Shown here piece by piece: positions 7,849-30,155 of a stretch of 64,000 nt of DNA. The DNA comes from Betaproteobacteria bacterium (lineage in GTDB: Bacteria > Pseudomonadota > Gammaproteobacteria > Burkholderiales > Burkholderiaceae_D): NCBI GenBank assembly GCA_025356395.1, contig JANXTA010000064.1, forward strand, positions 62,001 to 126,000, in the 5' to 3' direction. Made by a program: the position numbers and the translations under genes. The notes under the pieces are model-generated. The model searched no databases, was not told the DNA's origin, and worked only from the letters and a program-made list of their open reading frames with translations. Within the stretch, counting starts at the first letter, position 1; each line of letters starts with the position of its first letter.

Positions 7849-9051
7849 TCACTGGAAGGCTTGAATCCCGGTGATGGCACGACCCAGGATCAGCGCATGG
7901 ATGTCGTGCGTGCCCTCGTAGGTGTTGACCACCTCGAGGTTGACGAGATGTCGCGCCACGCCGTATTCGTCGGAGATGCCGTTGCCGCCCATCATGTCGC
8001 GCGCGAGACGTGCGATATCGAGCGACTTGCCGCACGAATTGCGCTTCATGATCGACGTGATCTCGACCGACGCCGTGCCTTCGTCCTTCATGCGACCGAG
8101 GCGCAGGCAACCCTGCAGTCCCAGCGTGATCTCGGTCTGCATGTCGGCCAGCTTCTTCTGGATCAACTGATTGGCCGCGAGGGGCCGACCGAACTGCTTG
8201 CGATCCATCACGTAGGTACGCGCGCGGAACCAGCAGTCCTCGGCCGCGCCGAGCGCACCCCAGGCGATGCCGTAGCGCGCCGAGTTGAGGCAGGTGAACG
8301 GACCCTTCAGGCCGCGGATATCGGGGAACGCGTTGTCTTCCGGACAGAACACCTCGTCCATCACGATCTCGCCGGTGATGGACGCCTTGAGGCCGACCTT
8401 GCCGTGGATCTTGGGGGCGCTGAGGCCCTTCATGCCCTTGTCGAGGATGAAGCCGCGGATGGCGCCTTCATCGTCCTTGGCCCATACGACGAAGACGTCG
8501 GCGATGGGCGAGTTGGAGATCCACATCTTGGCGCCCGACAACGAGTAGCCGCCCGCGACCTTCCTGGCGCGCGTGACCATCGAGCCAGGATCGGAGCCGT
8601 GGTCGGGCTCGGTCAATCCAAAGCAGCCGATGAACTCGCCGGTCGCCAGCCTGGGCAGGTACTTCTGCTTCTGCGCCTCGGTGCCGAACTCGAAGATGGG
8701 CACCATCACGAGCGACGACTGCACGCTCATCATCGAGCGATAGCCGGAGTCGACACGCTCGACCTCGCGCGCGATGAGCCCGTAGGCGACATAGTTGAGG
8801 CCGGGGCCGCCGTACGCCTCGGGGATGGTCGGGCCGAGCAGGCCTAGTTCGCCCATCTCGCGAAAGATCGATGGGTCGGTGGTCTCGTTGCGGAAGGCCT
8901 CGACGACGCGGGGTGCGAGCTTGTCTTCGCAGTAGCGGCGGGCGGCGTCCTTGATCATGCGTTCGTCGTCGCTCAACTGCGCGTCGAGGAGCAGGGGGTC
9001 GTCCCACTGGAAGCGGGCCTTGAGGCGATGGGAGAGATCGGGTGCGTTCAT
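7849..9051 (-). CDS. gcdH: glutaryl-CoA dehydrogenase
   Basis: 400 aa. It oxidises and decarboxylates glutaryl-CoA to crotonyl-CoA at the end of lysine, tryptophan and aromatic degradation. Typical acyl-CoA dehydrogenase blocks are present: [51 protein letters not shown] and [16 protein letters not shown], where the Glu of YEGT is the catalytic base. [15 protein letters not shown] and the missing internal stretch before TRARK fit the GcdH subgroup. ATG 9051 gives [10 protein letters not shown]; the open frame upstream is noise. Intact. This contrasts with the acyl-CoA-dehydrogenase-like protein at 27371, which lacks the base. Confidence 0.93.
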
Positions 9052-15615: not shown

Positions 15616-16008
15616 TCAGTCGGGAACCACGGCGGTCGCTTCGATTTCTAGCTTCGCGCGGTCCTCGATCAGCGCCACCACCTGAACCGCGGTCATCGCG
15701 GGGAAGTGCTTGCCGATGAGCTCGCGATACGCCGCACCGATGGCCGGGTAGGCATCCACGTACTCGCGCTTGTCCAGCACGTACCAGGTCATGCGGACGA
15801 GGTGCTCCGGCCGGCCGCCGGCCTCGACCAGCACCGCGACGATGTTGGCGAGCGCCTGTCGCGCCTGTACCGCGAAGTCGTCGCTCTCGAACACGCACTG
15901 CGCGTTCCAGCCGATCTGTCCCGCGATCGACACGACCGTGCCGCGCGCAGCGATGCCGTTGGAGTAGCCGCGCGGCTTGGTCCAGCCATCGGGTTGCAGA
16001 ATCTTCAT
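15616..16008 (-). CDS. RidA family (YjgF) protein
   Basis: 130 aa. WTKPRGYSNGIAARGTVVSI, then QARQALANIVAVLVEAGG and VRMTWYVLDKREY, end in LIEDRAKLEIEATAVVPD. This is the RidA trimer fold with the Arg in the EDRAKLEIEA strand that binds carboxylates. RidA proteins deaminate reactive enamines or imines; a subgroup acts on 2-aminomuconate. It follows kynA by 22 nt on the same strand, so a role in clearing an imine made during kynurenine or anthranilate breakdown is plausible but inferred. Confidence 0.87.
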   Translation of the reverse strand: MKILQPDGWTKPRGYSNGIAARGTVVSIAGQIGWNAQCVFESDDFAVQARQALANIVAVLVEAGGRPEHLVRMTWYVLDKREYVDAYPAIGAAYRELIGKHFPAMTAVQVVALIEDRAKLEIEATAVVPD

Positions 16009-16030
16009 CGCTAGTCCCTCGCCATTTTTC

Positions 16031-16819
16031 TTAGAGATCCGTCCTGACTTTCCACAACTCGGGAAACAGGACGATATCCAGCATCTTGCGCAGATAGCTC
16101 ACGCCGCCGGTGCCACCGGTGCCGGGCTTGAAACCGATGATGCGTTCCACCGTCGTCACGTGCCGGAAGCGCCACTGCCGGAAGGCGTCCTCGAGATCGA
16201 TCAGCTCTTCGGCGAGTTCGTACAGGCGCCAGTGGTGCTCGGGGTCGCGATAGACGGTGAGCCAGGCGTCGGCGATGGCTTCGTCGAAGAGACGTGGCAC
16301 GGTCGGATCCGCTGGCGCGGGATTCACCGCGAAGCCGGAGCGTGCCAGCAGGCCGATCGCCTCGTCGTAGATGCTCGCGCTGCGCAACACGCGGCCGAGG
16401 TGCTCGCGCATGTCGGGCACGTGCACCTCGACGCGGGCCGCGTTCTTGTTGCCGAGCAGGAACTCGATCTCGCGATACTGCGGCGACTGGAAGCCCGACG
16501 AGCTACCCAGGTAGGGACGCACGCCGCTGTACTCGGTCGGCGTCATCGTCGCCAGCACGGTCCACGCGGACACCAACTGCTCCATGATCCGCGACACGCG
16601 CGCCAGCATCTTGAAAGCCGCCGGCAACGCGTCGTCGTGCAGGTTCTGCACGGCTGCGCGCAACTCGTGGAGCATCAGCTTCATCCACAGCTCGCTGGTC
16701 TGGTGCTGAATGATGAACAGCATTTCGTTGTGATCCGGCGAGCGCGGATGCTGCGAAGACAACAACGTGTCGAGCGACAGGTAGTCGCTGTAGGTCAGGC
16801 TGCGAGGCGCCTCGGACAT
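16031..16819 (-). CDS. kynA: tryptophan 2,3-dioxygenase
   Basis: 262 aa haem enzyme that opens the indole ring of tryptophan to N-formylkynurenine. The substrate and haem pocket is intact: [38 protein letters not shown], and [20 protein letters not shown], with the axial His in FRHV and the GTGGTGG loop. Length fits the bacterial family. The start lies 1 nt past the kynU stop (TGACATG), so translation is coupled to kynU. A kynurenine formamidase gene is not in this window. Confidence 0.95.
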
Positions 16820-16820
16820 G

Positions 16821-18170
16821 TCAGGTTACCGCGGCGCGCACGTCGAAGCGCGCGTCGCGGAAGCTGCCGCTCGCGACCACGTCAGCGATGGTCGTGACCG
16901 CGTCGAACACGTCGACGTAGCGCAGATAAGCCGGCGTGAAGCCGAAGCGCAGAATGTCCTCGTCGTCGGTCGCGCCCTTGCGGAAGTCGCCCACCACGCC
17001 GCGATCGATCAGGGCCTGCATCACCGCATAACCACGTCCCGCGATCGCACCGCGTGCATGGAACGAGACCTGGCTGCCGCGCAGCGCCGGATCGCGCGGC
17101 GTCGCCAGCAACATGGCGTCACCGCAGTGGGCCTCGACGAGCTCGATGAACAACGCGGTCATCGCGATCGACTTCGCACGCAGGCCGCGCATCGGGTTCG
17201 CGTCGCCGTCCTTCAATGAGGCGATGCCGCACTCCAGCGCGGCCATCGACAGGATCGGCGGTGTGCCGCACAGGAAGCGATCGACGCCCGTGGCGGGCTG
17301 GTAACCCGACACGAACGCGAAGGGCGCCGCGTGACCCATCCAGCCCGACAGCGGTTGCCGGAAGCGCTCGACATGACGCGGGTGCGCCCACAGGAAGGCC
17401 GGCGCGCCCGGGCCACCGTTGAGGTACTTGTAGCCGCAGCCGATCGCGAAGTCGGCATCGGCGTCGTGCAGGTCGACCGGGACGGCGCCGACCGAATGCG
17501 CGAGGTCCCAGATCACCAGCACGCCGGACTCGTGGGCGATGCGCGTGAGCCGCTTCATGTCGTGCATCGCACCGCTGCGGTAGTTGACGTGCGTCAGCAT
17601 CAGCACCGCGACCGACGGGTCGAGCGCGGCGACGATCGCCGCGGCACGCGCGTCGCTGGCGGTGGCCGGCACGAGCTTCAACGCGGCCCCGTCGCCGCAT
17701 TGCTCGACGACGCCTTCGGCGATGTAGAGATCGGTCGGGAAGTTGTCGGCTTCGCTGACGACGAGCTTGCGACCCGTGTCCTCGTGCGCGATCCGCAGCG
17801 CGACCGTCAACACCTTGAACAGGTTGACCGAGGTCGAGTCGGCCACGGCCACCTCGCCGAAACGGGCGCCGATCAACGGGGCCAGCGCATCGCCGACGCG
17901 ACGCGGCGCCGCGATCCATCCGGCGCTGTTCCAGCTCTCGATCAGGTCTTGTCCCCACTCGCGCGTGACGACGTCGGCGACGCGTGCGGCGGTCGCGCGC
18001 GGCAAGGCGCCCAGCGAGTTGCCGTCGAGATAGATCGTGCCGTCGGGCAGGCTGAAACGTTCACGCAGCGCGGCCAGCGGATCGTGTTCGTCGAGATCGA
18101 CGCAATGCGCGCGGGCCGCGCTGCTGGGAGGCGTGGGAAGGGCGTCGTGACGAACGGTTTGCGAGGGCAT
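16821..18170 (-). CDS. kynU: kynureninase
   Basis: 449 aa PLP enzyme that splits kynurenine to anthranilate and alanine. [15 protein letters not shown], then [40 protein letters not shown], the Asp of [17 protein letters not shown], and [15 protein letters not shown] with the Schiff-base Lys are all present. First gene of the kynU-kynA-ridA operon. It is transcribed divergently from the aryl-CoA hydroxylase 72 bp away, which makes anthranilate the natural link between the two transcripts. Confidence 0.95.
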
Positions 18171-18187
18171 GGATTTATTTTAGACTT

Positions 18188-18197
18188 AAAGTACTTT
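18188..18197. promoter_or_regulatory. palindrome in the kynU / aryl-CoA hydroxylase divergent promoter
   Basis: AAAGTACTTT, a perfect 10-bp palindrome, lies in an AT-rich patch within the 72-bp gap between two divergent start codons. That is a suitable place for an operator controlling both transcripts, for example for a MarR or Lrp-type (KynR) regulator. No regulator gene is adjacent; the nearest is the MarR gene at 23655. Confidence 0.45.
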
Positions 18198-18242
18198 TGC
18201 ACCAACGCGAACAACCGGCGGACAACCCATGCGCATCGAACC

Positions 18243-20654
18243 ATGAACATCCACATCGTGGGCGCCGGTCCGGCCGGCCTCTATTTTTCGATCCTGGCCA
18301 AGAAGACCTTTCCCGACGCGCACATCGAGGTCGCCGAGCGCAACCGCGCCGACGACACCTTCGGCTTCGGCATCGTGCTGTCTGACGAGACGCTCGGCAA
18401 CCTCAGGCACGCCGACGAGGCGACCTATCGCCAGATCGCCGCCAATTTTGCGTACTGGGACGACATCTACACGCACTTCCGCGGCTCGGTCAGCCGATCG
18501 AGCGGCCACGGTTTCTCGGGTATCCGTCGACTGACGCTGCTGCAGATCCTGCAGCGTCGCGCCGTCGAGCTCGGCGTCGAGCTGCGTTACGGCGTCGATG
18601 ACCAGGGCGTCGCAGCGCATGCCGACGCGGACCTCGTCGTCGCGGCCGACGGCATTAACAGCCAGATCCGCGAGACGTTCAAGACCTCGTTCGCGCCCGA
18701 GGTCGACCTGCGCACAAATCGCTTCACGTGGCTGGGCGCGCGCATGAACCTGCCTGGCTTCACGTACAGCTTTCGCGAGGACATGATCAGTCCGACCGAT
18801 GGGCCGCATAAGCCGGGCATCTGGAATATGCATGCGTACGAGTACACCGCTCGCGATCGCAGCGACCCGGATGCGCCGACCGGCGAATGCACGATCGTCA
18901 TCGAGACTACCGACGAAGCCTTCAGGGCCTCGGGCCTGTCGGCGACCGACGAGGTCGCGACGGTGCGTTTCGTCGAGCAGTTGTTCGCGGACGACCTGCA
19001 GGGTCATGCAGTGCTCACCAACCGTTCGCACTGGCGCCAGTTCCCGACCATCCGCTGCAAGACCTGGCATCACGCGGTCAAGCAGGCGAACGGTCGCACC
19101 ACGCAGGTCGTGCTGCTCGGCGATGCGGCGCACACCGCGCACTTCTCGATCGGCTCCGGAACCAAGCTCGCGCTCGAAGACGCGATCGCGCTGCATGCGG
19201 CCGTCGTGGCGCAGCCCGACGACCTCAGGCATGCGCTCGCGCATTACGAGGCGGGGCGGCGCGACGAGGTCGGTCGCATCCAGCATTCGGCCAACGTCAG
19301 CCTCGTGTGGTTCGAGAACGTGCAGCGCTTCTGGGACATGGAGCCGATCCAGTTCAACTACTCGCTGCTGTCGCGCTCGAAGCAGATCACGCACGAGAAT
19401 CTGCGCGTGCGCGATGCCGGGCTGGTCGACGAGGTCGAAGACTGGTGGAACCGCGGCCGGGCCGCCGAGTTCGGTGTCGCGTTGCCCGCCGACTTCAAAG
19501 CGCCGCCGCTGTTCTCGCCGCTGATGCTGCGCGGCATGCAGCTGAAGAACCGCGTGGTGGTATCGCCGATGGCGCAGTACTCGGCGGTCGACGGCCTGCC
19601 CAACGACTGGCATTTCGTCCACTACACGACGCGTGCGCTAGGCGGTGCGGGGCTGGTGTTCATCGAGATGACCTGCCCGTCATCGGACGCGCGCATCACG
19701 CCGGGATGCACGGGGATCTGGACGCATGCGCAGGCCGTCGCGTGGCAGCGCATCGTCGACTTCAGCCACCGTCACAGCGACGCCAAGCTGTGCCTGCAGC
19801 TCGGGCACGCGGGTCGCAAGGGCTCCACGCAGGTCGGTTGGGAAAAGATGGACCGGCCGCTCGACGAGGTGCTGCACGGACCCAACTGGGGACTCTTCGC
19901 GCCGTCGCCGATCGCGTATCGCGAGGGCGTCAATGCGATGCCGCGCGTGATGACGCCGAAGGACATGGACCGTATCCGCGACCAGTTCGTGGCATCGGCG
20001 CGGCTCGCCGACGAGGCCGGCTTCGACATGCTCGAGCTGCACATGGCGCACGGCTACCTGCTCGCGAGCTTCATCTCGCCGATCACCAACCAGCGCGACG
20101 ATGCCTACGGCGGCTGCCTCGCCAACCGCCTGCGCTGGCCTCTCGAGGTGTGGGACGCGGTGCGCGCCGCGTGGCCGCAACACAAGCCGATGAGCGTTCG
20201 CCTCTCGGCCACCGACTGGATCGCAGGCGGTACCAGCGCGGCCGATACGGTCGAAATCGCCCGGACCTTCAAGGCTCACGGCTGCGATCTGATCGACGTG
20301 TCGACCGGGCAGACCGATCCGGCCGCGAAGCCGGTTTACGGGCGCATGTATCAGGCAACCTTCGCCGAGCAGGTGCGGCTCGAGGCCGGCATCGCGACGA
20401 TGGCGGTCGGTGCGGTGACGACTGCGGACCAGGTCAACACGCTGCTGGCCTCGGGTCGTGCGGACCTCGTGGCGCTCGCGCGGCCGCATCTCGCGGACCC
20501 CTATTTCACGCTGCACGCGGCGACCGAGGCCGGTTACGAGGGCGCGACCTGGCCCGCACAGTACGTGCCGGGCGCGCAGCAGGCCTACGCGTTGGCGAAG
20601 CGTGCCCGCGAGGACGCGGCGAAGAAGGCGGCCGATGCAAGGAGGCCGATCTGA
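18243..20654 (+). CDS. bifunctional salicylyl-CoA/2-aminobenzoyl-CoA 5-hydroxylase and OYE-like reductase
   Basis: 803 aa with two domains. Residues 1 to ~390 form a class A FAD monooxygenase: MNIHIVGAGPAGLYFSILAK, VVAADGINSQIRE, and LLGDAAHTAHFSIGSGTKLA. Residues ~405-800 form an old-yellow-enzyme-like FMN domain: FSPLMLRGMQLKNRVVVSPM, then HGYLLASFISPITNQRDDAY and LVALARPHLADPYFT. This architecture is known for 2-aminobenzoyl-CoA monooxygenase/reductase, which hydroxylates and dearomatises anthraniloyl-CoA, and for salicylyl-CoA 5-hydroxylase. Divergence from kynU favours the anthraniloyl-CoA role. The much longer frame upstream of ATG 18243 is antisense to kynU. Intact. Confidence 0.93.
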   Translation: MNIHIVGAGPAGLYFSILAKKTFPDAHIEVAERNRADDTFGFGIVLSDETLGNLRHADEATYRQIAANFAYWDDIYTHFRGSVSRSSGHGFSGIRRLTLLQILQRRAVELGVELRYGVDDQGVAAHADADLVVAADGINSQIRETFKTSFAPEVDLRTNRFTWLGARMNLPGFTYSFREDMISPTDGPHKPGIWNMHAYEYTARDRSDPDAPTGECTIVIETTDEAFRASGLSATDEVATVRFVEQLFADDLQGHAVLTNRSHWRQFPTIRCKTWHHAVKQANGRTTQVVLLGDAAHTAHFSIGSGTKLALEDAIALHAAVVAQPDDLRHALAHYEAGRRDEVGRIQHSANVSLVWFENVQRFWDMEPIQFNYSLLSRSKQITHENLRVRDAGLVDEVEDWWNRGRAAEFGVALPADFKAPPLFSPLMLRGMQLKNRVVVSPMAQYSAVDGLPNDWHFVHYTTRALGGAGLVFIEMTCPSSDARITPGCTGIWTHAQAVAWQRIVDFSHRHSDAKLCLQLGHAGRKGSTQVGWEKMDRPLDEVLHGPNWGLFAPSPIAYREGVNAMPRVMTPKDMDRIRDQFVASARLADEAGFDMLELHMAHGYLLASFISPITNQRDDAYGGCLANRLRWPLEVWDAVRAAWPQHKPMSVRLSATDWIAGGTSAADTVEIARTFKAHGCDLIDVSTGQTDPAAKPVYGRMYQATFAEQVRLEAGIATMAVGAVTTADQVNTLLASGRADLVALARPHLADPYFTLHAATEAGYEGATWPAQYVPGAQQAYALAKRAREDAAKKAADARRPI

Positions 20655-22741: not shown

Positions 22742-23665
22742 ATGCAGCGTCAGGCACGCTTCGACGCCACCACCCTCGCCCTGCTCGTCCTGCCGCCGCT
22801 GTTCTGGGCCGGCAACGCCGTCGTCGGACGCTACGCAGCCGGACTGATCGCGCCGATGGCGCTCAACGCTCTGCGCTGGTTGCTGGCCGGCCTGTTGCTG
22901 CTGCCGTTCGTGTGGCGCGACCTGCGTCCGCACGCCGCCGTGATGCGGCGCGAATGGCTCGTGATCGCCGTCCTCGGCGTCTGCGGCATGGGCACCTACA
23001 ACGCGCTGCAGTACCTCGCGCTCACCACGTCCACCGCGCCCAACGTCACGCTGATCGCGGCGTCGGCGCCGATCTTCGCGCTGGGCTTCGGAGCCCTGTT
23101 CTTCGGACAGCGCATCGACCGGCGCCGCTCGCTCGGCGCCGCGGTCTCGATCGTCGGGGTGCTGCTGGTGCTGGTCCACGGCGACTTTGCGCGCCTGCTG
23201 ACGCTGACCTTCGTGCCCGGCGATCTGTTCATGCTCGTGGCTTCAGCCCTGTGGAGCGTCTACACCTGGCTGCTCCGCACGCGCCGGCCGCCGCTGCCGC
23301 CGATGGTCCTGCTGTTCGCGCAGATCGCTCTCGGATCGATCTTCTGCGTGGCGTGCGCGCTGGTCGAGTGGCAGGTCTTCGGCAAGATGTCGCGCTTCGA
23401 CACGCCCGCCGCCGCGTGGGTGCTGGCCTACGTGGCGGTGCTGCCGTCGCTGGTCGGCTACCTGATGTGGGATCGCGGCGTCGCACGGACCGGCGCCACG
23501 CTGCCGATCTTCTTCGCCAATCTCGCGCCGGTGTTCGCGGCGATCCTGTCGGCGCTGCTGCTGTCCGAGTGGCCGCAGTGGTATCACGCGGCGGGTCTGG
23601 CCTTCATCCTGCTCGGCATCCACCTGGCCAGTCGACCGGCGCGGGGCTCGGGCTTCAACCGCTAG
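22742..23665 (+). CDS. EamA/DMT superfamily transporter
   Basis: 307 aa with ten predicted membrane helices in two EamA repeats. LLVLPPLFWAGNAVVGRYAA opens repeat one, GDLFMLVASALWSVYTWLLR opens repeat two, and NLAPVFAAILSALLLSEWPQ and FILLGIHLASR close it. Substrate unknown; relatives export amino acids or metabolites. The end overlaps the convergent MarR gene by 11 nt. Confidence 0.9.
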   Translation: MQRQARFDATTLALLVLPPLFWAGNAVVGRYAAGLIAPMALNALRWLLAGLLLLPFVWRDLRPHAAVMRREWLVIAVLGVCGMGTYNALQYLALTTSTAPNVTLIAASAPIFALGFGALFFGQRIDRRRSLGAAVSIVGVLLVLVHGDFARLLTLTFVPGDLFMLVASALWSVYTWLLRTRRPPLPPMVLLFAQIALGSIFCVACALVEWQVFGKMSRFDTPAAAWVLAYVAVLPSLVGYLMWDRGVARTGATLPIFFANLAPVFAAILSALLLSEWPQWYHAAGLAFILLGIHLASRPARGSGFNR

Positions 23666-24110
23666 AGATCAACTTTCGCAAGGCGCTCTTCAGCGCCGCC
23701 GCCTCACACGCATCGAGACGCTCGACCGCCGAACGCTCGTGACGCTTCGAGCGCGACAGCAGCGTGCCGAGCGCGTGGCGGCCGGTCGCAGTGATGCGCA
23801 CCAGCGACTGCCGCCGATCGACCTCGCCATCGCTGCGCGCGATGCGGCCCTCGGCCCCCATGCGCTTGAGCAGCTTTGTGACGGTGGACTGCTGCGCCAG
23901 CGCGATCGACGCGAGTTCGCCGACGCTGTGCGGCCGACCATCGGCGAGCGTCGCCAGCACGCGCCACTCGAGCACCGTCAGCCCGGCGGCCCGCACCTCA
24001 AGATGGAACTCCGAAGCGACGATGTGGCTCGCGCGGGCGAGCAGATAGGAGAGGTAGTCGTCGACCGCCCACGCATCCGCTCGGGGCATCTTGCGGGCCG
24101 ACCCAGTCAC
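23655..24110 (-). CDS. MarR family transcriptional regulator
   Basis: 151 aa from a GTG at 24110 that overlaps the previous gene's stop (GTGA); ATG 24089 (MPRADAWAVDDYLSYLLARA) is the alternative start. Winged helix: LTVLEWRVLATLADGRPHSV, ELASIALAQQSTVTKLLKRM, and the wing RIARSDGEVDRRQSLVRITA. MarR proteins repress catabolic operons and release DNA on binding an aromatic acid or its CoA thioester. Last gene of the minus-strand arm of the 23.7-30.2 kb cluster; likely operator at 25292-25311. Confidence 0.9.
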   Translation of the reverse strand: MTGSARKMPRADAWAVDDYLSYLLARASHIVASEFHLEVRAAGLTVLEWRVLATLADGRPHSVGELASIALAQQSTVTKLLKRMGAEGRIARSDGEVDRRQSLVRITATGRHALGTLLSRSKRHERSAVERLDACEAAALKSALRKLISSG

Positions 24111-24637
24111 TCGGGCTCGATGCCGAGCGCGACTAGGAAGCGCGACACCATGTTGTAGGCGGCGACGACGCCGACCAATTCGACGGTCTGTGCGCTACCG
24201 AGCAGTCGATGGAGCGTCGCGAAGGTCGTGTCCTCGACCTCGACGATGCGGGTCATCTGCATGCTCAACGCGATCGTCGCGTTCTCGAGCTCGTCGAACA
24301 GCGACGGGTCGATCGCCACCGACTCCATGTGCTTGACCGCGAGGATCTGCGCCTCGCTGCCGCCGGCCTTTACGAACTCGGGCGCGTGATGGATGTACTC
24401 GTACTCGGCCGTGTTCATGATGGCGACGACGCACATCGCCAGCTCACGCAGCTTGGGGTCGACGGTGAGGCCAGTCCGTACTGCGCCGAGCATCGCGTTC
24501 CATCCCTGCGCGAACGCGGGGCTGTGCAGCAGTTGTCGATCGAGGTTCAGCAGGCCGCCGCCGCGTCGCTGCCTGATCGCGGCCACCAGCGGCGTATCGC
24601 CGGCCTGTTCATCGGTGATGTAGGGAATGCGGGGCAT
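24107..24637 (-). CDS. carboxymuconolactone decarboxylase/AhpD-like protein
   Basis: 176 aa from ATG 24637 (MPRIPYITDEQAGDTPLVAA). An all-helical CMD fold: LLHSPAFAQGWNAMLGAVRT, LRELAMCVVAIMNTAEYEYI, HHAPEFVKAGGSEAQILAVK and LVGVVAAYNMVSRFLVALGI. The peroxidase motif ExxxCxxC is not complete (AMCVVAIMNTAEYEYIHH has one Cys), so AhpD-type peroxidase activity is doubtful and a lactone or decarboxylation role is possible. Lies between the flavin reductase and marR genes, all on one strand. Confidence 0.85.
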   Translation of the reverse strand: MPRIPYITDEQAGDTPLVAAIRQRRGGGLLNLDRQLLHSPAFAQGWNAMLGAVRTGLTVDPKLRELAMCVVAIMNTAEYEYIHHAPEFVKAGGSEAQILAVKHMESVAIDPSLFDELENATIALSMQMTRIVEVEDTTFATLHRLLGSAQTVELVGVVAAYNMVSRFLVALGIEPE

Positions 24638-24669: not shown

Positions 24670-25242
24670 TTACCGATCGGGATGCGGTTGGGTCATGTGA
24701 TAGTTGCCGCCCTGGAACACGAGCGGCTCGCGCGTGCTGAAGTCGCAGCGTTCGACCTCGCCGACGAAGATGACGTGATCGCCTTCCTCGTAGCGGCTGC
24801 GGTTGAAACACTCGAACCAGGCGCAACAGCCGTCGAGGATCGGCGCCCCGCGAAATCCCTCGCGCCAGGCGATGCCGTCGAAGCGGCTGGCCAGGCTCGC
24901 GATGCTGGTGCTGCTGCGCGTGCTGAAGCGACGCGACAACTCGATCTGGTCGGAGGCCAGAACGTTGACCGCGTAGTGCGAGTTGTCGAGGAACACCGCG
25001 AGGCTCGCCGCGGCGAGGGCGAGACTCCACAGCACGAGCGGTGGATCGAGCGACACCGAGTTGAACGAGTTGGCCGTGAAGCCGAGCAGCTGCGGATTTC
25101 CGTCGCGATCGATGGCGTGCGTCGTGATGATGGTGACGCCGGTGGCGAACTGCCCGAGCGCGCCGCGGAAGTGGCTGCTGTCGAAGTCGGGCCGCCGCGC
25201 GACCTCACCTTCGTTCGGCTGGGCGATCAGCGACGTGGTCAT
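24670..25242 (-). CDS. flavin reductase domain protein
   Basis: 190 aa, a single flavin-reductase-like FMN-binding split barrel: FRGALGQFATGVTIITTHAI, LLGFTANSFNSVSLDPPLVL, then YAVNVLASDQIELSRRFSTR and GDHVIFVGEVERCDFSTREP. Such proteins supply reduced FMN or FAD to two-component monooxygenases. The only oxygenase-like flavoprotein close by is the acyl-CoA-dehydrogenase-fold protein at 27371, so the two may form a pair (inference). First gene of the minus-strand arm. Confidence 0.9.
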   Translation of the reverse strand: MTTSLIAQPNEGEVARRPDFDSSHFRGALGQFATGVTIITTHAIDRDGNPQLLGFTANSFNSVSLDPPLVLWSLALAAASLAVFLDNSHYAVNVLASDQIELSRRFSTRSSTSIASLASRFDGIAWREGFRGAPILDGCCAWFECFNRSRYEEGDHVIFVGEVERCDFSTREPLVFQGGNYHMTQPHPDR

Positions 25243-25509: not shown

Positions 25510-26574
25510 ATGCTCGTTGAGCGCGTCGAGGCGCGCTGGGTCGCGGCCTTCGTCGCGGTGTTGCGGCGCTGCGCGATCGGTCCCGGCGACGTCGTCGCGA
25601 TCCTGTCCGAATCGCAATCGCGCGCAGTGCTGGTCGAGCTCGCCGAACTCGCCGCGGGACAGCTCAGTGCCCGCGTCTTCCGCATCGTCATGCCCACCCC
25701 CGCGTCGACGGGATCGATCCCCATCCGCTCGACCGGTGCGTCCGACGCGATCGGTCACCTGGCACCTGTCGTCGCCGCGCTTGCGACGTCGACGCTGGTG
25801 GTCGACTGCACGGTCGAAGGCATGCTCCACGCGCCCGAACTACCGGCCATCCTCGCGGGTGGCGCGCGTCTGCTGATGATCTCGAACGAGCACCCCGAGA
25901 TCCTCGAGCGCTGCATGCCCGACGATGCGATCGAGGCCGCCGTCCGCGCGGACATGAAGCGCCTTCGCGCCGCGTCCGAAATGCGGGTCACGTCGGAGGC
26001 CGGCAGCGACCTCACCGTCCGCCTCGCAGGAGCGAAGGTCGGTGGCGTGTGGGGCTATTGCGCGAAGCCGGGCCAGGTCTCGCACTGGCCGGGCGGCCTG
26101 TGCCTCGCCTTCCCCGCGGCCCACACGATCGCCGGCACGCTGGTGCTCGCACCCGGCGACATCAACCTCGCCTTCAAGTCCTATCTGCGTGACCGCATTG
26201 TGTTGGCGATCGAGGACGACGGCATCGTCGCGATCGAGGGCGACGGCGTCGACGCGGATCTGATGCGCGGCTACTGGCGCTCGTGGGAAAAGCTCGAAGG
26301 CAACCGCAACGCCTACGCCGTCTCGCATGTCGGCTGGGGCCTCAACCGCAACGCACGCTGGGACTCGCTCGCCTTCTACGACAAGCGAGACTGCAACGGC
26401 ACCGAGCTGCGGGCGTTCGCCGGCAACTTCCTGTTCTCGACCGGCGCCAACGAAGTGGCGGGTCGCCCTACGCTCGCGCACTTCGACCTGCCGATGCGTC
26501 ACTGCACGATCACGCTCGACGGCCGGGTCGTGGTCGAGCGCGGCAACCTGGTGGACCACGAGGTGACGACATGA
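25510..26574 (+). CDS. NicX-like 2,5-dihydroxypyridine 5,6-dioxygenase family protein
   Basis: 354 aa of the M29-peptidase-like fold used by NicX, the Fe(II) enzyme that opens 2,5-dihydroxypyridine to N-formylmaleamate. The metal ligands of NicX have counterparts: AVSHVGWGLN (His273) and AHFDLPMRHC (His324, Asp326). TSEAGSDL, QVSHWPGGLCLAFP, GDINLAFKSYLRDRIVL and FAGNFLFSTGANE also match from memory of NicX. The stop overlaps the next start (ATGA). Substrate here may differ because the downstream genes include a CoA ligase. It could also be an aminopeptidase relative, but the His/His-x-Asp pattern argues against that. Confidence 0.8.
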   Translation: MLVERVEARWVAAFVAVLRRCAIGPGDVVAILSESQSRAVLVELAELAAGQLSARVFRIVMPTPASTGSIPIRSTGASDAIGHLAPVVAALATSTLVVDCTVEGMLHAPELPAILAGGARLLMISNEHPEILERCMPDDAIEAAVRADMKRLRAASEMRVTSEAGSDLTVRLAGAKVGGVWGYCAKPGQVSHWPGGLCLAFPAAHTIAGTLVLAPGDINLAFKSYLRDRIVLAIEDDGIVAIEGDGVDADLMRGYWRSWEKLEGNRNAYAVSHVGWGLNRNARWDSLAFYDKRDCNGTELRAFAGNFLFSTGANEVAGRPTLAHFDLPMRHCTITLDGRVVVERGNLVDHEVTT

Positions 26575-27374
26575 TGCTGACCCCGGTAACGGCCGTGCCC
26601 TACTTCGAAGAGCGGGGCGGCGGCGCGACCACGGTGCTGATGCTGCACGGCATCGGCGGCGGTCGTCAGGCGTTCGCCCATCAGATGCAGCCGCTGGCGG
26701 AAGCGGGCTTCCATGCGGTCGCGTGGGACATGCCGGGCTACGGCCATTCATCGATCGTCGATCCGTACACGTTCGAGACGCTCGCCGAGGAGTGCATCGA
26801 ACTGATAGCCGTGCTCGATCCGGAGCGGCTGGTGCTGGTAGGTCACAGCATGGGCGGCATGGTCGCGCAGGAGGTCGCGGCGCGAGCGCCCGGACGGATT
26901 GCCGCACTGGTGCTGGCAGGCACCAGTCCGGCCTTCGGCAAGGCCGACGGCGACTGGCAGCGTCGCTTCGTCGAGGAGCGCACCGCGTCGCTCGATGCGG
27001 GACGATCGATGACCGAGCTCGCGACGCAACTGGTCGCGCTGATGGTGGCGAGCGAGGCTTCCGACAGCGCGCGCAAGGAGGCGATCGACGTGATGTCGCT
27101 TGTCCCGCCGCAGAGCTATCGACAGGCGTTGCAGGCATTGATGGGCTTCGACCGTCGCGCCCATCTTCCTGCGCTGACGATGCCGGTCCTGCTGGTCGCC
27201 GGCAGCGACGACCGCAACGCGCCGCCGTCGGTGATGAAGGGCATGGCCGAGCGCATCCCGCTGGCCGACTACGTGTGCCTCGAGCGCTGCGGGCACCTGA
27301 TGACGTTCGAGCGGCCCGCCGCTTTCAACGATGTGCTGCTCGCCTTTCTGCGCCGGGTGGCGACGACGTCATGA
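26571..27374 (+). CDS. alpha/beta hydrolase
   Basis: 267 aa. The oxyanion loop LMLHGIGGGRQAF, the nucleophile elbow LVGHSMGGMVAQEVAARAPG (Ser), the acid in LLVAGSDDRNAPPSVMK and the His in ERCGHLMTFERP form a full triad. Coupled by ATGA overlaps to both neighbours. Behind a NicX-like dioxygenase, the expected step is deformylation, as done by NicD on N-formylmaleamate, or hydrolysis of a ring-opened CoA ester or lactone. The choice between these is inference. Intact. Confidence 0.87.
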   Translation: MMLTPVTAVPYFEERGGGATTVLMLHGIGGGRQAFAHQMQPLAEAGFHAVAWDMPGYGHSSIVDPYTFETLAEECIELIAVLDPERLVLVGHSMGGMVAQEVAARAPGRIAALVLAGTSPAFGKADGDWQRRFVEERTASLDAGRSMTELATQLVALMVASEASDSARKEAIDVMSLVPPQSYRQALQALMGFDRRAHLPALTMPVLLVAGSDDRNAPPSVMKGMAERIPLADYVCLERCGHLMTFERPAAFNDVLLAFLRRVATTS

Positions 27375-28645
27375 GCGATCTCTCCTTCGTACCGGCCATC
27401 GGGGTCACGCCGCTGACCGACCGTCAACGGCATCTCCTCTCGATCGCGCACGAACTCGGTCGCACGAAGTTCGCGCCGCGCGCCCACCAATGGGACGACA
27501 CCGCGACCTTCCCCTTCGTCAACTACCAGGACCTGCGCGAGGCCGGCCTGCTCGCGCTCTGCATCCCCGAGTCGCAAGGCGGGCAGGGCGCCGACTATGC
27601 GACCTATTGCATGGTCGCCGCCGAGCTCGGCCGCTTCTGCGGCGCGACGGCACTGACCTTCAACATGCACAGCTGCTCGACGCTGTGGATCGGCTCGCTG
27701 GCCGAGGCGCTGACGATGGATGGCGACCAGCGTGCCGAACACGAGCGGCGTCGCGACCGGCACTTCGCACGCGTCGTCGAGCGGGGCCAGCTCTACGCAC
27801 AGCCGTTCTCCGAAGGCAGCGCCGCCGCCGCGGGTCGCGCGCCGTTCGGGACCACCGCGCGCCGCGAGACGCGCGACGGTGTCTCGGGATGGGTCATCGA
27901 CGGCCGCAAGATCTGGGCGAGCCTGTCCGGTGCCGCCGACTACTACGGGATCCTCTGCACCGAGGCGATCGACGACGCGAGCACGCACGAGACCAAACCG
28001 CTCGACATGCGCGACACGCTCTACATCGCTGTGCCTGCGACCAGCGAGGGCCTGACGATCGAAGGTACGTGGGATCCGATGGGCATGCGCGGCACGGTCT
28101 CGCGCAACATCACGTTCAAGGACGTGTTCGTGCCCGACGAAGAGCAGCTCCTGCCACGCGGGCTCTACTACCGCGCCGCCCAGACCTGGCCGCACATGTT
28201 CTTCACGCTGTCGCCGACCTATCTGGGCGTGGCCAACGCGGCCTACGACTTCACCGTGAAGTACCTGCGCGGCGAGGTCGAGGGCGAGCCGCCGGTCAAG
28301 CGTCGTCAGTACCCGACCAAGCAGATCGCGGTCGCGCAGATGCGCATCCAGCTCGAGGCGATGCGCTCGATGTTCTGGCGCACGATCCTCGAAGCGAAGC
28401 CCAATCCGTCGAAGGACGAACGCCTGCGCCTCTATGCCGCGCACTACACGGTGATGGAAGGCGCCAACGACATCGCGCGTCTGGCGCTGCGGACCTGCGG
28501 CGGCCAGTCGATGCTCAAGCACCTGCCGCTCGAACGCCTCTATCGCGACAGCCGCTGCGGGTCGCTGATGTTGCCGTGGACCGCCGAGCTGTGCATGGAC
28601 CGCATCGGCCGCGAGGCGTTGTACGAGCCCGGCGAGAAGGACTGA
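27371..28645 (+). CDS. acyl-CoA dehydrogenase-fold flavoprotein without the catalytic Glu
   Basis: 424 aa with N-terminal helices (REAGLLALCIPESQGGQGAD), a middle barrel (GWVIDGRKIWASLSGAADYY, GTWDPMGMRGTVSRNITFKD) and C-terminal helices (RRQYPTKQIAVAQMRIQLEA, ARLALRTCGGQSMLKHLPLE). At the place of the catalytic YEGT motif it has LPWT (residues 401-404), so the base Glu is Pro402. The gap between the first helical domain and the barrel is long and Arg-rich. Loss of the base suits a flavin monooxygenase of the HpaB/HsaA fold or an atypical dehydrogenase rather than a normal one. A flavin reductase is encoded nearby. Confidence 0.82.
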   Translation: MSDLSFVPAIGVTPLTDRQRHLLSIAHELGRTKFAPRAHQWDDTATFPFVNYQDLREAGLLALCIPESQGGQGADYATYCMVAAELGRFCGATALTFNMHSCSTLWIGSLAEALTMDGDQRAEHERRRDRHFARVVERGQLYAQPFSEGSAAAAGRAPFGTTARRETRDGVSGWVIDGRKIWASLSGAADYYGILCTEAIDDASTHETKPLDMRDTLYIAVPATSEGLTIEGTWDPMGMRGTVSRNITFKDVFVPDEEQLLPRGLYYRAAQTWPHMFFTLSPTYLGVANAAYDFTVKYLRGEVEGEPPVKRRQYPTKQIAVAQMRIQLEAMRSMFWRTILEAKPNPSKDERLRLYAAHYTVMEGANDIARLALRTCGGQSMLKHLPLERLYRDSRCGSLMLPWTAELCMDRIGREALYEPGEKD

Positions 28646-28655
28646 GCGCTTCGCG

Positions 28656-30155
28656 ATGAACCTCGCCGCTGCGCTCGACGCTATCGCCGAGGGGGACCCG
28701 GGACGAGTCGCGATCCATGTCGAAGGCGCGACCCTGACGCGCGGCGAGCTGAGGACCGCGATCTTCGCCGCGACGCGAACGTTGCGAGGCGCCTGGTCGG
28801 TACGCCGTGGCGATCGGGTCGGCTATCTCGGCCTGAATCGCGTCGAAGAACTGATGCTGCTGTTCGCGCTGGCCCGCATCGGCGCCGTGTTCGTGCCCCT
28901 CAACACGCGCCTCGCCGTCACGGAACTGGTCCACATCGCGACGCACGCGCAACTCCATACACTGGTCACCGACGCCGGCCACCGCGACATCGGCACGGCG
29001 GTCATCGAAGGAGTGTCGGTCGCCGTCGATCTGCGCGCCATCGATGACCTCGTCGCGGACGCGCCGTTGGTCGACACGGACGTCGAGCCGGTCGGACCCG
29101 ACGTGCCGCTGCTGCTGATCTACACCTCCGGCACGACCGGCGCGCCGAAGGGTGCGCTGCACACGCACGGCGCCTTGCTGGCCAACGCCAGTGCCGCCAT
29201 CGCCGCACACGACATGGATCGCCACGACCGCGTGCTGACTGTCCTGCCGCTGTTCCATGTCGGGGGTCTCTGCATCCAGACTTTGCCGGCGTTGCTGGTC
29301 GGTGCCTCGCTGGTGCTGCATCCGCGCTTCGATGCCAAGGCGTGGCTCGAAGCGATCGCCACGATGCGACCGACGTTGACGCTGATGGTCCCGGCGACGC
29401 TGCGTGCGGCCATCGCGCATCGCGACTGGGGGAATTCCAACCTGTCGTGCCTGCGCATCCTGATGACGGGCTCGTCGACCATCCCGCGCAAGCTGATCGA
29501 TGCCGTTCACGCGCGCCACGTGCCGCTCGGCCAGATCTACGGCAGCACCGAGACCGGTCCGGTCACGGTCGCGCTGAAGGCCGTCGATGCGCGCCGCAAG
29601 CCCGGCTTCGCGGGCTGGCCATGCTTTCCAGACTCGGTGCGGCTGATCGATGCGGACGGCGCCGACGTGGCTACGGGAGCGGTCGGCGAGATCGCCGTGC
29701 GCGCACCCAACCTGATGCAGGGCTACTGGCGTGAGCCCGTGAGCACGGGCTTTCGCGAGGGCTGGTTCGCGACCGGCGACCTCGGCCGCTTCGATGCCGA
29801 CGGTTGCCTCGAGGTGGTCGGTCGCAACCGGGACTTGATCATCACCGGCGGCGAAAATGTCTACCCCGTGGAGATCGAGGACGTGCTGCTGTCCATCGCA
29901 GGCGTGGGCGACGCGGCCGTCGTGGGAACGCCCGACGAGCAATGGGGCGAGGTTCCTGCGGCGTTCGTCGTGCGCGGGAGCAGTACCGAGGGCGCTCGAC
30001 TCGACGAGGCCACGATCGCCGCGGCGTTCACCGACCGGCTGGCTCGCTTCAAGCATCCGAAGCGCATCGTGTTCATCGACGGCCTGCCGCGCAACGCGAT
30101 GGGCAAGGTGCAGGTGCATCTCCTGCACGAGCGGCTGGCCGCGAACGAGGGTTGA
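28656..30155 (+). CDS. class I adenylate-forming acyl/aryl-CoA ligase
   Basis: 499 aa. LLIYTSGTTGAPKGALHTHG (P-loop A3), IYGSTETGPVT (A5), GWFATGDLGRFDADG with the ribose-binding Asp, VVGRNRDLIITGGENVYPVE (hinge A8) and PRNAMGKVQVH with the catalytic Lys are intact. It adenylates a carboxylic acid and passes it to CoA. Ten nt after the preceding gene, so it closes the operon. Candidate acids are the operon's own substrate or anthranilate, which needs activation for the 18243 enzyme and has no other ligase here. Specificity cannot be read. Confidence 0.9.
   Translation: MNLAAALDAIAEGDPGRVAIHVEGATLTRGELRTAIFAATRTLRGAWSVRRGDRVGYLGLNRVEELMLLFALARIGAVFVPLNTRLAVTELVHIATHAQLHTLVTDAGHRDIGTAVIEGVSVAVDLRAIDDLVADAPLVDTDVEPVGPDVPLLLIYTSGTTGAPKGALHTHGALLANASAAIAAHDMDRHDRVLTVLPLFHVGGLCIQTLPALLVGASLVLHPRFDAKAWLEAIATMRPTLTLMVPATLRAAIAHRDWGNSNLSCLRILMTGSSTIPRKLIDAVHARHVPLGQIYGSTETGPVTVALKAVDARRKPGFAGWPCFPDSVRLIDADGADVATGAVGEIAVRAPNLMQGYWREPVSTGFREGWFATGDLGRFDADGCLEVVGRNRDLIITGGENVYPVEIEDVLLSIAGVGDAAVVGTPDEQWGEVPAAFVVRGSSTEGARLDEATIAAAFTDRLARFKHPKRIVFIDGLPRNAMGKVQVHLLHERLAANEG

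Follow-up and report, generated by a model that had tools for sequence, protein, structure and literature searches.

A base-less acyl-CoA dehydrogenase-fold protein, probably the oxygenase of a two-component flavin monooxygenase, in a conserved gene unit with a NicX-like dioxygenase

The 64,000-nucleotide stretch of a Betaproteobacteria bacterium analyzed here (assembly GCA_025356395.1, contig JANXTA010000064.1, positions 62,001 to 126,000; referred to as the window) carries on its plus strand, at 27371-28645, a gene for a protein with the Pfam domains of the acyl-CoA dehydrogenases (ACADs), in which Pro402 and Met276 occupy the places of the base Glu. The open reading frame has exactly these borders and encodes 424 amino acids; its ATG and the stop codon of the gene just upstream overlap. 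Judged from its sequence, the protein is very probably the oxygenase of a two-component flavin monooxygenase that has the ACAD fold and is of the group D type. The reading that we moderately favor as a whole is that this monooxygenase hydroxylates an aromatic compound of the tryptophan/anthranilate branch for ring cleavage by a NicX-type dioxygenase.

Dehydrogenases with the ACAD fold have their base in one of two columns, that of the medium-chain acyl-CoA dehydrogenase (MCAD) type or that of the isovaleryl/long-chain type. The sequence-only reading had pointed out that the YEGT motif of the window's own GcdH (7849-9051, minus strand) is LPWT in the target and that Pro402 thereby replaces the catalytic Glu. 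The alignment bears this out, and a Glu was found at neither known base position in any of the 114 distinct family sequences, the window's copy included. Column 276, which we take to be the isovaleryl-type base position, holds Met in 114/114, and since Pro402 and Met276 are both invariant, the base Glu at the alternative position that would have refuted the sequence-only reading is absent. Arg311, Arg312, Thr316, Lys317 and Glu406 are equally invariant in this set, and the same holds for Asn98, Met99, His100, Trp106, Arg392 and Asp393 in 117 rows counted before duplicates were removed; position 275 is His in 79, Ala in 34 and Tyr in one of the 114 sequences. The alignment itself comprised 39 rows, 11 from the family and 28 from outside it. 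Each of the 11 family rows shows Pro402 together with Met276; the other rows have a Glu at the Pro402 column (7, including GcdH), at the 276 column (11) or at neither (10). RxxFG, the flavin motif of dehydrogenases, is absent from the aligned family. An ordinary dehydrogenase was rejected as a candidate, given that both base positions are non-acidic across the family. One of the 11 rows with Glu at the 276 column, an ACAD from the same genome (L008), has Pro at the 402 column; therefore Pro402 alone is not diagnostic and only the double loss is informative.

The family relatives were drawn from related genomes, plasmids and a scan of species genomes, and later from one alphaproteobacterial order. 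The scan yielded at least 585 stretches that encode a relative (E 1e-3), orthologues as well as others, of which the best 80 were used; consequently, close relatives are over-represented and the loci are not independent. Three duplicates (L153 of L056, L156 of L099 and L162 of L107) were removed to arrive at the 114 sequences and at the 93 loci discussed below.

The claim of an enlarged, Arg-rich spacer between the helical and barrel domains holds for its length, which is 42 residues in 11/11 family rows against 29-33 in 28/28 other rows. The Arg-richness applies to the window's copy and less to the rest of the family, as this copy has the highest count (7 Arg) and the remaining family rows have 3-6.

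The AlphaFold model of the target (pLDDT 86.3, pTM 0.89) shows a complete three-domain ACAD fold. In structure comparison the VIA Z scores run from 39.3 downward for dehydrogenases, followed by 36.7 for 5z8t, 35.6 for DnmZ and 35.5 for the 3-sulfinopropionyl-CoA desulfinase; with values this close for dehydrogenases and monooxygenases, the fold by itself decides nothing. A profile of nine family members gave 5gj7 (7.9e-47) and 5z8t (1e-46) as its top hits in the PDB, with 8i4p (1.2e-38) and the human short-chain acyl-CoA dehydrogenase (SCAD; about 4e-34) ranked lower. The 5gj7/5z8t protein ('Acyl-CoA dehydrogenase type 2 domain protein') shares the Pro at the base column with the target family, although the identity is 26% over the aligned model and its spacer is of normal length. 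The PDB title of 5z8t is 'flavin-containing monooxygenase'; no paper on 5Z8T/5GJ7 was found in the open-licence PMC literature. In a midpoint-rooted tree of 37 rows the family forms a clade with 5gj7 and a further six base-less rows at a support of 1.0 (L195_9 and L188_2 were left out, the latter also being without Glu at both columns). Two of the six relatives (L190, L191) lie near a flavin reductase gene and two (L192, L194) near a gene for an LLM flavin oxidoreductase.

The NCBIfam models matched by the target all remain far under their cut-offs: FadE16 scores best (121.2 of 600 bits), the 3-sulfinopropionyl-CoA desulfinase is second (110.7 of 600), and HsaA (56.3 of 450), DszC (50.1 of 850) and the HPA hydroxylase (29.5 of 650) score lower. 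With the group D monooxygenases (HpaB/HsaA/DszC/KijD3/IacA type) the target has in common the ACAD fold, the lack of a base Glu and, by linkage, a flavin reductase. It differs from them in the LPWT motif with its one-residue insertion, a spacer that is about 10 residues longer, the family-wide R311 R312 and T316 K317 pairs, and the adjoining NicX-type dioxygenase gene.

The gene lies in a unit that is conserved across 93 distinct loci, each 15 kb or longer. On the minus strand the unit has a MarR-type regulator (23655-24110; Pfam MarR; 58/93 loci) and a flavin reductase of the HpaC/HsaB type (24670-25242; Pfam Flavin_Reduct, 1.2e-37; 62/93), and on the plus strand the NicX-like gene (25510-26574; 82/93), an alpha/beta hydrolase gene (26571-27374; Pfam Abhydrolase_1; 85/93), the target and an AMP-dependent acid-CoA ligase gene (28656-30155; Pfam AMP-binding; 66/93). 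The first three plus-strand genes overlap and the ligase gene starts 10 bases after the target. Genes were called by a codon-usage script and labelled by BLAST thresholds, so that the absences are upper bounds; in L061, for instance, a flavin reductase is present that the BLAST labelling missed. Among the PDB relatives of the hydrolase are esterases, 3-oxoadipate enol-lactonase and BphD, and we propose that it acts on the ring-cleavage product as a deformylase or a C-C hydrolase; feruloyl-CoA synthetase is one of the PDB relatives of the ligase. PADLOC gave no defence-system match.

As had been noted from the sequence, a flavin reductase gene is part of the cluster; it is divergent and lies 2.1 kb away from the target. 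Its product stays below the cut-off in NCBIfam (at best 169.7 of 340 bits). By Pfam, the target is the only flavin-using protein in the core unit besides the reductase, and for that reason we consider it the reductase's partner. The earlier suggestion of a two-component monooxygenase or another non-classical reaction on a CoA thioester thus divides into two parts. The monooxygenase gains support from the missing base Glu, the lost RxxFG motif, the 5gj7/5z8t profile match, the tree and the flavin reductase found in at least 62/93 loci. A CoA thioester as the substrate is a possibility only: the CoA-ligase gene is present in most operons and absent from one whole sub-clade. The Hydrogenophaga and Ramlibacter loci are without the ligase, and in five loci, four of them Hyphomicrobiales records, the accessory genes are replaced by those for a glutamine-synthetase-like protein, an APC permease and a flavin reductase of another type.

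The gene was found in 8/250 sampled genomes of the window's order and in 29/249 sampled genomes of the alphaproteobacterial order of Roseibium; gene-bearing taxa include Cupriavidus, Pandoraea, Limnohabitans, Hydrogenophaga and Ramlibacter. No description of this operon was found among the open-licence PMC papers that literature searches for the combination listed. Several loci deviate from the common layout. In the window, a gene for a carboxymuconolactone-decarboxylase-like protein, presumably accessory (24107-24637, minus strand; Pfam CMD), sits between the MarR and flavin reductase genes, as it does in only one of the 93 other loci (L152, same genus). In L030 (10131-19562) and L164 (5842-15325) genes for a gentisate 1,2-dioxygenase-related cupin and for fumarylacetoacetase-family, nitrilase-family and glutamine-synthetase-like proteins adjoin. 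L034 and L035 have copies of the monooxygenase (76%), and no NicX-like, hydrolase or reductase gene was recognized within 10 kb of these. A lone homolog (58%) occurs on a conjugative plasmid of Dolichospermum, a cyanobacterial metagenome-assembled genome (L029, 11992-13239; kept outside the loci counts), with a Tn3 transposase at a distance of less than 6 kb and none of the partner genes annotated around it, which suggests recent transfer or misbinned sequence. This copy, which lies outside the 114-sequence set, has Pro and Met at the same two positions.

The NicX-like protein gave no match in Pfam or NCBIfam, and was recognized by its similarity to NicX of P. putida (7cn3; phmmer E 3.8e-56). 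The window's copy has all four iron ligands (His265, Ser302, His318 and Asp320). Within a set of 88 distinct NicX-like copies Ser302, His318, Asp320, His105 and His189 are present in 88/88 and His265 in 87/88. Glu177, on the other hand, is found in none of the 88: the residue is Val in 65 copies, as in the window, Asn in 16, Thr in 5, and Gly and Ile in one each. According to a passage in PMC7910607, Glu177 of NicX hydrogen-bonds N1 and O1 of 2,5-dihydroxypyridine. The same genome encodes a second NicX homolog (L199, G000:C72, 4968-8080), which is 52% identical to the P. putida enzyme and has kept Glu177; its gene adjoins an isochorismatase-domain gene, read as maleamate-amidase-like, and lies near a gene for a Rieske ring-hydroxylating oxygenase. 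Given the loss of Glu177 in the operon's copy and its retention in the second homolog, the former is, by its sequence, probably a ring-cleaving dioxygenase for a substrate other than 2,5-dihydroxypyridine.

The identity of residue 177 follows the accessory genes of the operon. It is Val, Gly or Ile in 62/62 operons with a CoA ligase, Asn in 16/16 without one (where the sequence runs on for 6.3 kb or more past the gene) and Thr in 5/5 with the glutamine-synthetase-like gene. Five further loci with Val show no ligase; in four of these (L048, L088, L093, L095) the contig breaks off no more than 0.8 kb from the gene. On the NicX tree about two changes of residue 177 are seen, and they fall on branches where the accessory gene changes too. 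This covariation is suggestive, but no proof, of a conjugation step that would precede ring cleavage.

What points to the tryptophan/anthranilate branch is the company of the unit. About 5-10 kb upstream of it, at 15616-20654, the window has genes for a RidA-type protein (15616-16008, minus strand; Pfam Ribonuc_L-PSP), tryptophan 2,3-dioxygenase (16031-16819, minus strand; PF03301, 225.8 bits, cut-off 34.9), kynureninase (16821-18170, minus strand; TIGR01814, 293.8 bits, cut-off 246.4) and a 2-aminobenzoyl-CoA monooxygenase/reductase-like protein (18243-20654, plus strand, start computed; Pfam Oxidored_FMN and FAD_binding_3). In the locus L056 an unbroken run of genes comprises RidA-kynA-kynU-kynB, the monooxygenase, an EamA-type transporter and the entire unit; the window has this gene set minus kynB, with other genes interspersed. 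The L056 relative of the monooxygenase passes the NCBIfam model NF006101 ('salicylyl-CoA 5-hydroxylase/oxidoreductase'). Across the 93 loci, tryptophan 2,3-dioxygenase or kynureninase was encoded on the same stretch in 21 and the 2-aminobenzoyl-CoA monooxygenase in 14, and the linked loci include those of Cupriavidus, Pandoraea and Shinella, L056, L152 and the alphaproteobacterial L177, L167, L169 and L170. The gene after the tryptophan 2,3-dioxygenase gene of L177 was not counted as kynureninase, as it matched Pfam Aminotran_5 only and nothing in NCBIfam at 1e-30.

The linkage extends to whole genomes. The loci of the best-80 scan correspond to 49 gene-bearing genomes, in two of which (those of L034 and L035) the remainder of the unit is missing. 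Tryptophan 2,3-dioxygenase is encoded in 46 of the 49, and so is a full-length 2-aminobenzoyl-CoA monooxygenase; at 1e-60 the latter is found in 49/49, as half-length matches only in G353, G356 and G358 and as two adjoining pieces in G325, G334 and G357. The CoA ligase of the 2-aminobenzoyl-CoA route is present at 53% identity or more in 36/37 genomes, that of the window included, and at 1e-60 in 37/37 (the best match in G358 is 36% identical and that in G001 spans half of the query). On another contig of the window's genome (L200, G000:C147, 4625-9143) homologs of enoyl-CoA hydratase, acyl-CoA dehydrogenase and 2-aminobenzoate-type CoA ligase genes occur together with a gene that was read as dienelactone-hydrolase-like; these are probably its lower 2-aminobenzoyl-CoA genes. 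Among the 46 genomes of one family, the monooxygenase is encoded in 18/19 gene-positive and 17/27 gene-negative genomes (Fisher p 0.016) and tryptophan 2,3-dioxygenase in 8/19 and 2/27 (Fisher p 0.009), both uncorrected for kinship. Of the 37/46 genomes with a monooxygenase match, G291 and G308, with the reductase half only, were left out of these counts and the partial G294 and G300 were kept. The linkage to the kynurenine genes and the 2-aminobenzoyl-CoA pathway indicates the tryptophan/anthranilate branch, and we consider it moderately likely that the substrate belongs there. We rejected the possibility that the unit stands in for the 2-aminobenzoyl-CoA route, as the two occur together.

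The evidence is computational throughout, and from the sequence, the predicted fold, the missing base, the conserved unit and the linkages we infer the reaction, the order of the steps and the substrate as follows. The divergent flavin reductase would supply reduced flavin to the oxygenase, which would bind it, react with O2 and hydroxylate the aromatic ring. The NicX-like Fe(II) dioxygenase may then cleave the ring beside the new hydroxyl, and the alpha/beta hydrolase, by analogy with NicX/NicD, would take off a one-carbon (formyl) or similar fragment. As first choice for the substrate we propose, tentatively, anthranilate, which the CoA ligase, where present, would convert to anthraniloyl-CoA for hydroxylation at C5, para to the amine; 5-hydroxylation of anthranilate as such is possible rather than likely. 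This position is preferred because the 5-hydroxyanthraniloyl group corresponds to 2,5-dihydroxypyridine with a carbocyclic ring, its carboxyl carbon standing in for N1, the atom that residue 177 contacts in NicX. A passage in PMC3534580, citing Langkau 1990, gives 5-hydroxyanthraniloyl-CoA as a product of the 2-aminobenzoyl-CoA monooxygenase at limiting NADH.

The proposed route touches on three described pathways. The nic pathway (NicC-NicX-NicD) has the same order of hydroxylation, Fe(II)-dependent ring cleavage and hydrolysis, the first and last steps being those of NicC and NicD, and shares the NicX homology and the iron ligands. The unit differs from it in an oxygenase with the ACAD fold and a separate reductase, in the missing Glu177, and in the CoA ligase of most operons. 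The 2-aminobenzoyl-CoA pathway of Azoarcus evansii has linked genes, shared genomes and the anthranilate branch in common with the unit, but, as stated in a passage of PMC4539516, makes a non-aromatic ring and continues by beta-oxidation. The route of Nocardia opaca likewise involves a 5-hydroxylated anthranilate, but runs via gentisate (Cain 1968, as cited in PMC4539516).

Several observations weigh against the favored reading. Two proteins without Glu at both columns (L007, L196) nevertheless cluster with dehydrogenases in the tree, and therefore the lost base and the monooxygenase clade are imperfectly linked. In three dimensions another acidic residue that is invariant, Glu406 or Glu148 for instance, might serve as the base. 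SCAD-type dehydrogenases top the single-sequence phmmer and Foldseek lists, the Z scores hardly separate dehydrogenases from monooxygenases, the cut-off of no NCBIfam monooxygenase model is reached, and the function assigned to 5z8t derives from a structure title. A flavin reductase was not recognized in the stretch in 31/93 loci. Concerning the substrate, the residue-177 pattern represents only about two changes on the NicX tree, and L158 (Val, with 1.7 kb downstream that holds another gene and no ligase) fits it unclearly. Some of the co-occurrence with the 2-aminobenzoyl-CoA route is background, considering the 17/27 gene-negative genomes that have its monooxygenase, and anthranilate as the substrate would put two routes for one compound side by side.

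The chief rival reading takes the unit as an upper pathway leading to anthranilate. The same enzymes would then act on an indole-type substrate, hydroxylated at C3 to indoxyl (for example decarboxylatively from indole-3-carboxylate); the NicX-like enzyme would cleave C2-C3 to give N-formylanthranilate, the hydrolase would deformylate it and the ligase would form 2-aminobenzoyl-CoA. This explains the near-constant presence of the 2-aminobenzoyl-CoA route (monooxygenase in 46/49, ligase in 36/37 genomes) better than 5-hydroxylation does, and accounts for a possible lack of the CoA ligase. The bond logic is that of NicX, which, according to a passage in PMC7910607, cleaves HO-C=CH-NH, and indole monooxygenases with the ACAD fold exist: passages in PMC7225977 and PMC6221969 describe oxidation of indole-3-acetic acid and indole by IacA and indigo formation by several ACAD-like proteins, respectively. 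However, the correlation between residue 177 and the ligase is left unexplained, and the TctC- and DctP-type organic-acid transporters beside some operons (one example each by Pfam, others by eye or BLAST) speak against free indole. Indole-specific genes were not recognized in the gene lists, which were not searched for them specifically. The known iif/ind indole cluster was rejected as a counterpart, as IifC/GS-C is of the styrene-monooxygenase type and not of the ACAD fold. Taken together, we regard the indole pathway as a possibility that is rather unlikely.

The remaining explanations are much less probable. A flavin-dependent acyl-CoA dehydrogenase or oxidase that uses another base, and electron-transfer flavoprotein or O2, would agree with the ACAD fold, the SCAD hits in single-sequence and Foldseek searches, the CoA ligase next door and the position of L007 and L196; the non-acidic residues at both known base positions in 114/114, the loss of RxxFG, the conserved partners (a flavin reductase and a ring-cleaving dioxygenase), and the absence of the ligase from a sub-clade make it very improbable. 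The least plausible alternative is a non-redox ACAD-fold enzyme resembling the 3-sulfinopropionyl-CoA desulfinase. This is suggested by the second-best NCBIfam score and the Z score of 35.5, but the cut-off of 600 bits is far off, the conserved unit contains no sulfur gene by Pfam, and the partner is a flavin reductase. The NicX-like and alpha/beta hydrolase genes could also indicate a part of the ordinary nicotinate/2,5-dihydroxypyridine pathway. We rejected that pathway and hold the explanation to be very unlikely, as Glu177 is absent in 88/88 and the closer NicX relative is encoded elsewhere in the genome.

Returning to hydroxylation followed by NicX-type ring cleavage, a wider and speculative view is that the unit represents an undescribed family of aerobic ring-cleavage operons. 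These would combine a base-less ACAD monooxygenase and a NicX-type dioxygenase retuned to a substrate that is a CoA thioester, a free acid or a glutamyl-conjugated aromatic amine acid, and residue 177 would track the conjugating enzyme (CoA ligase, none or glutamine-synthetase-like). In the annotated records examined, the protein is named acyl-CoA dehydrogenase and its NicX-like neighbor peptidase M29, and both names are probably misleading. If the favored reading is true, Cupriavidus, Pandoraea, Limnohabitans, Hydrogenophaga, Ramlibacter and alphaproteobacteria would possess an unrecognized ring-cleaving catabolic unit, for which a testable assignment to a tryptophan/anthranilate-linked pathway would be at hand. 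In its anthranilate form the pathway would pass through 5-hydroxyanthranilate(-CoA) and open the ring directly, involving neither ring reduction nor gentisate. It would also give the NicX-type dioxygenases a second substrate class, within which the identity of residue 177 may predict the form of the substrate.

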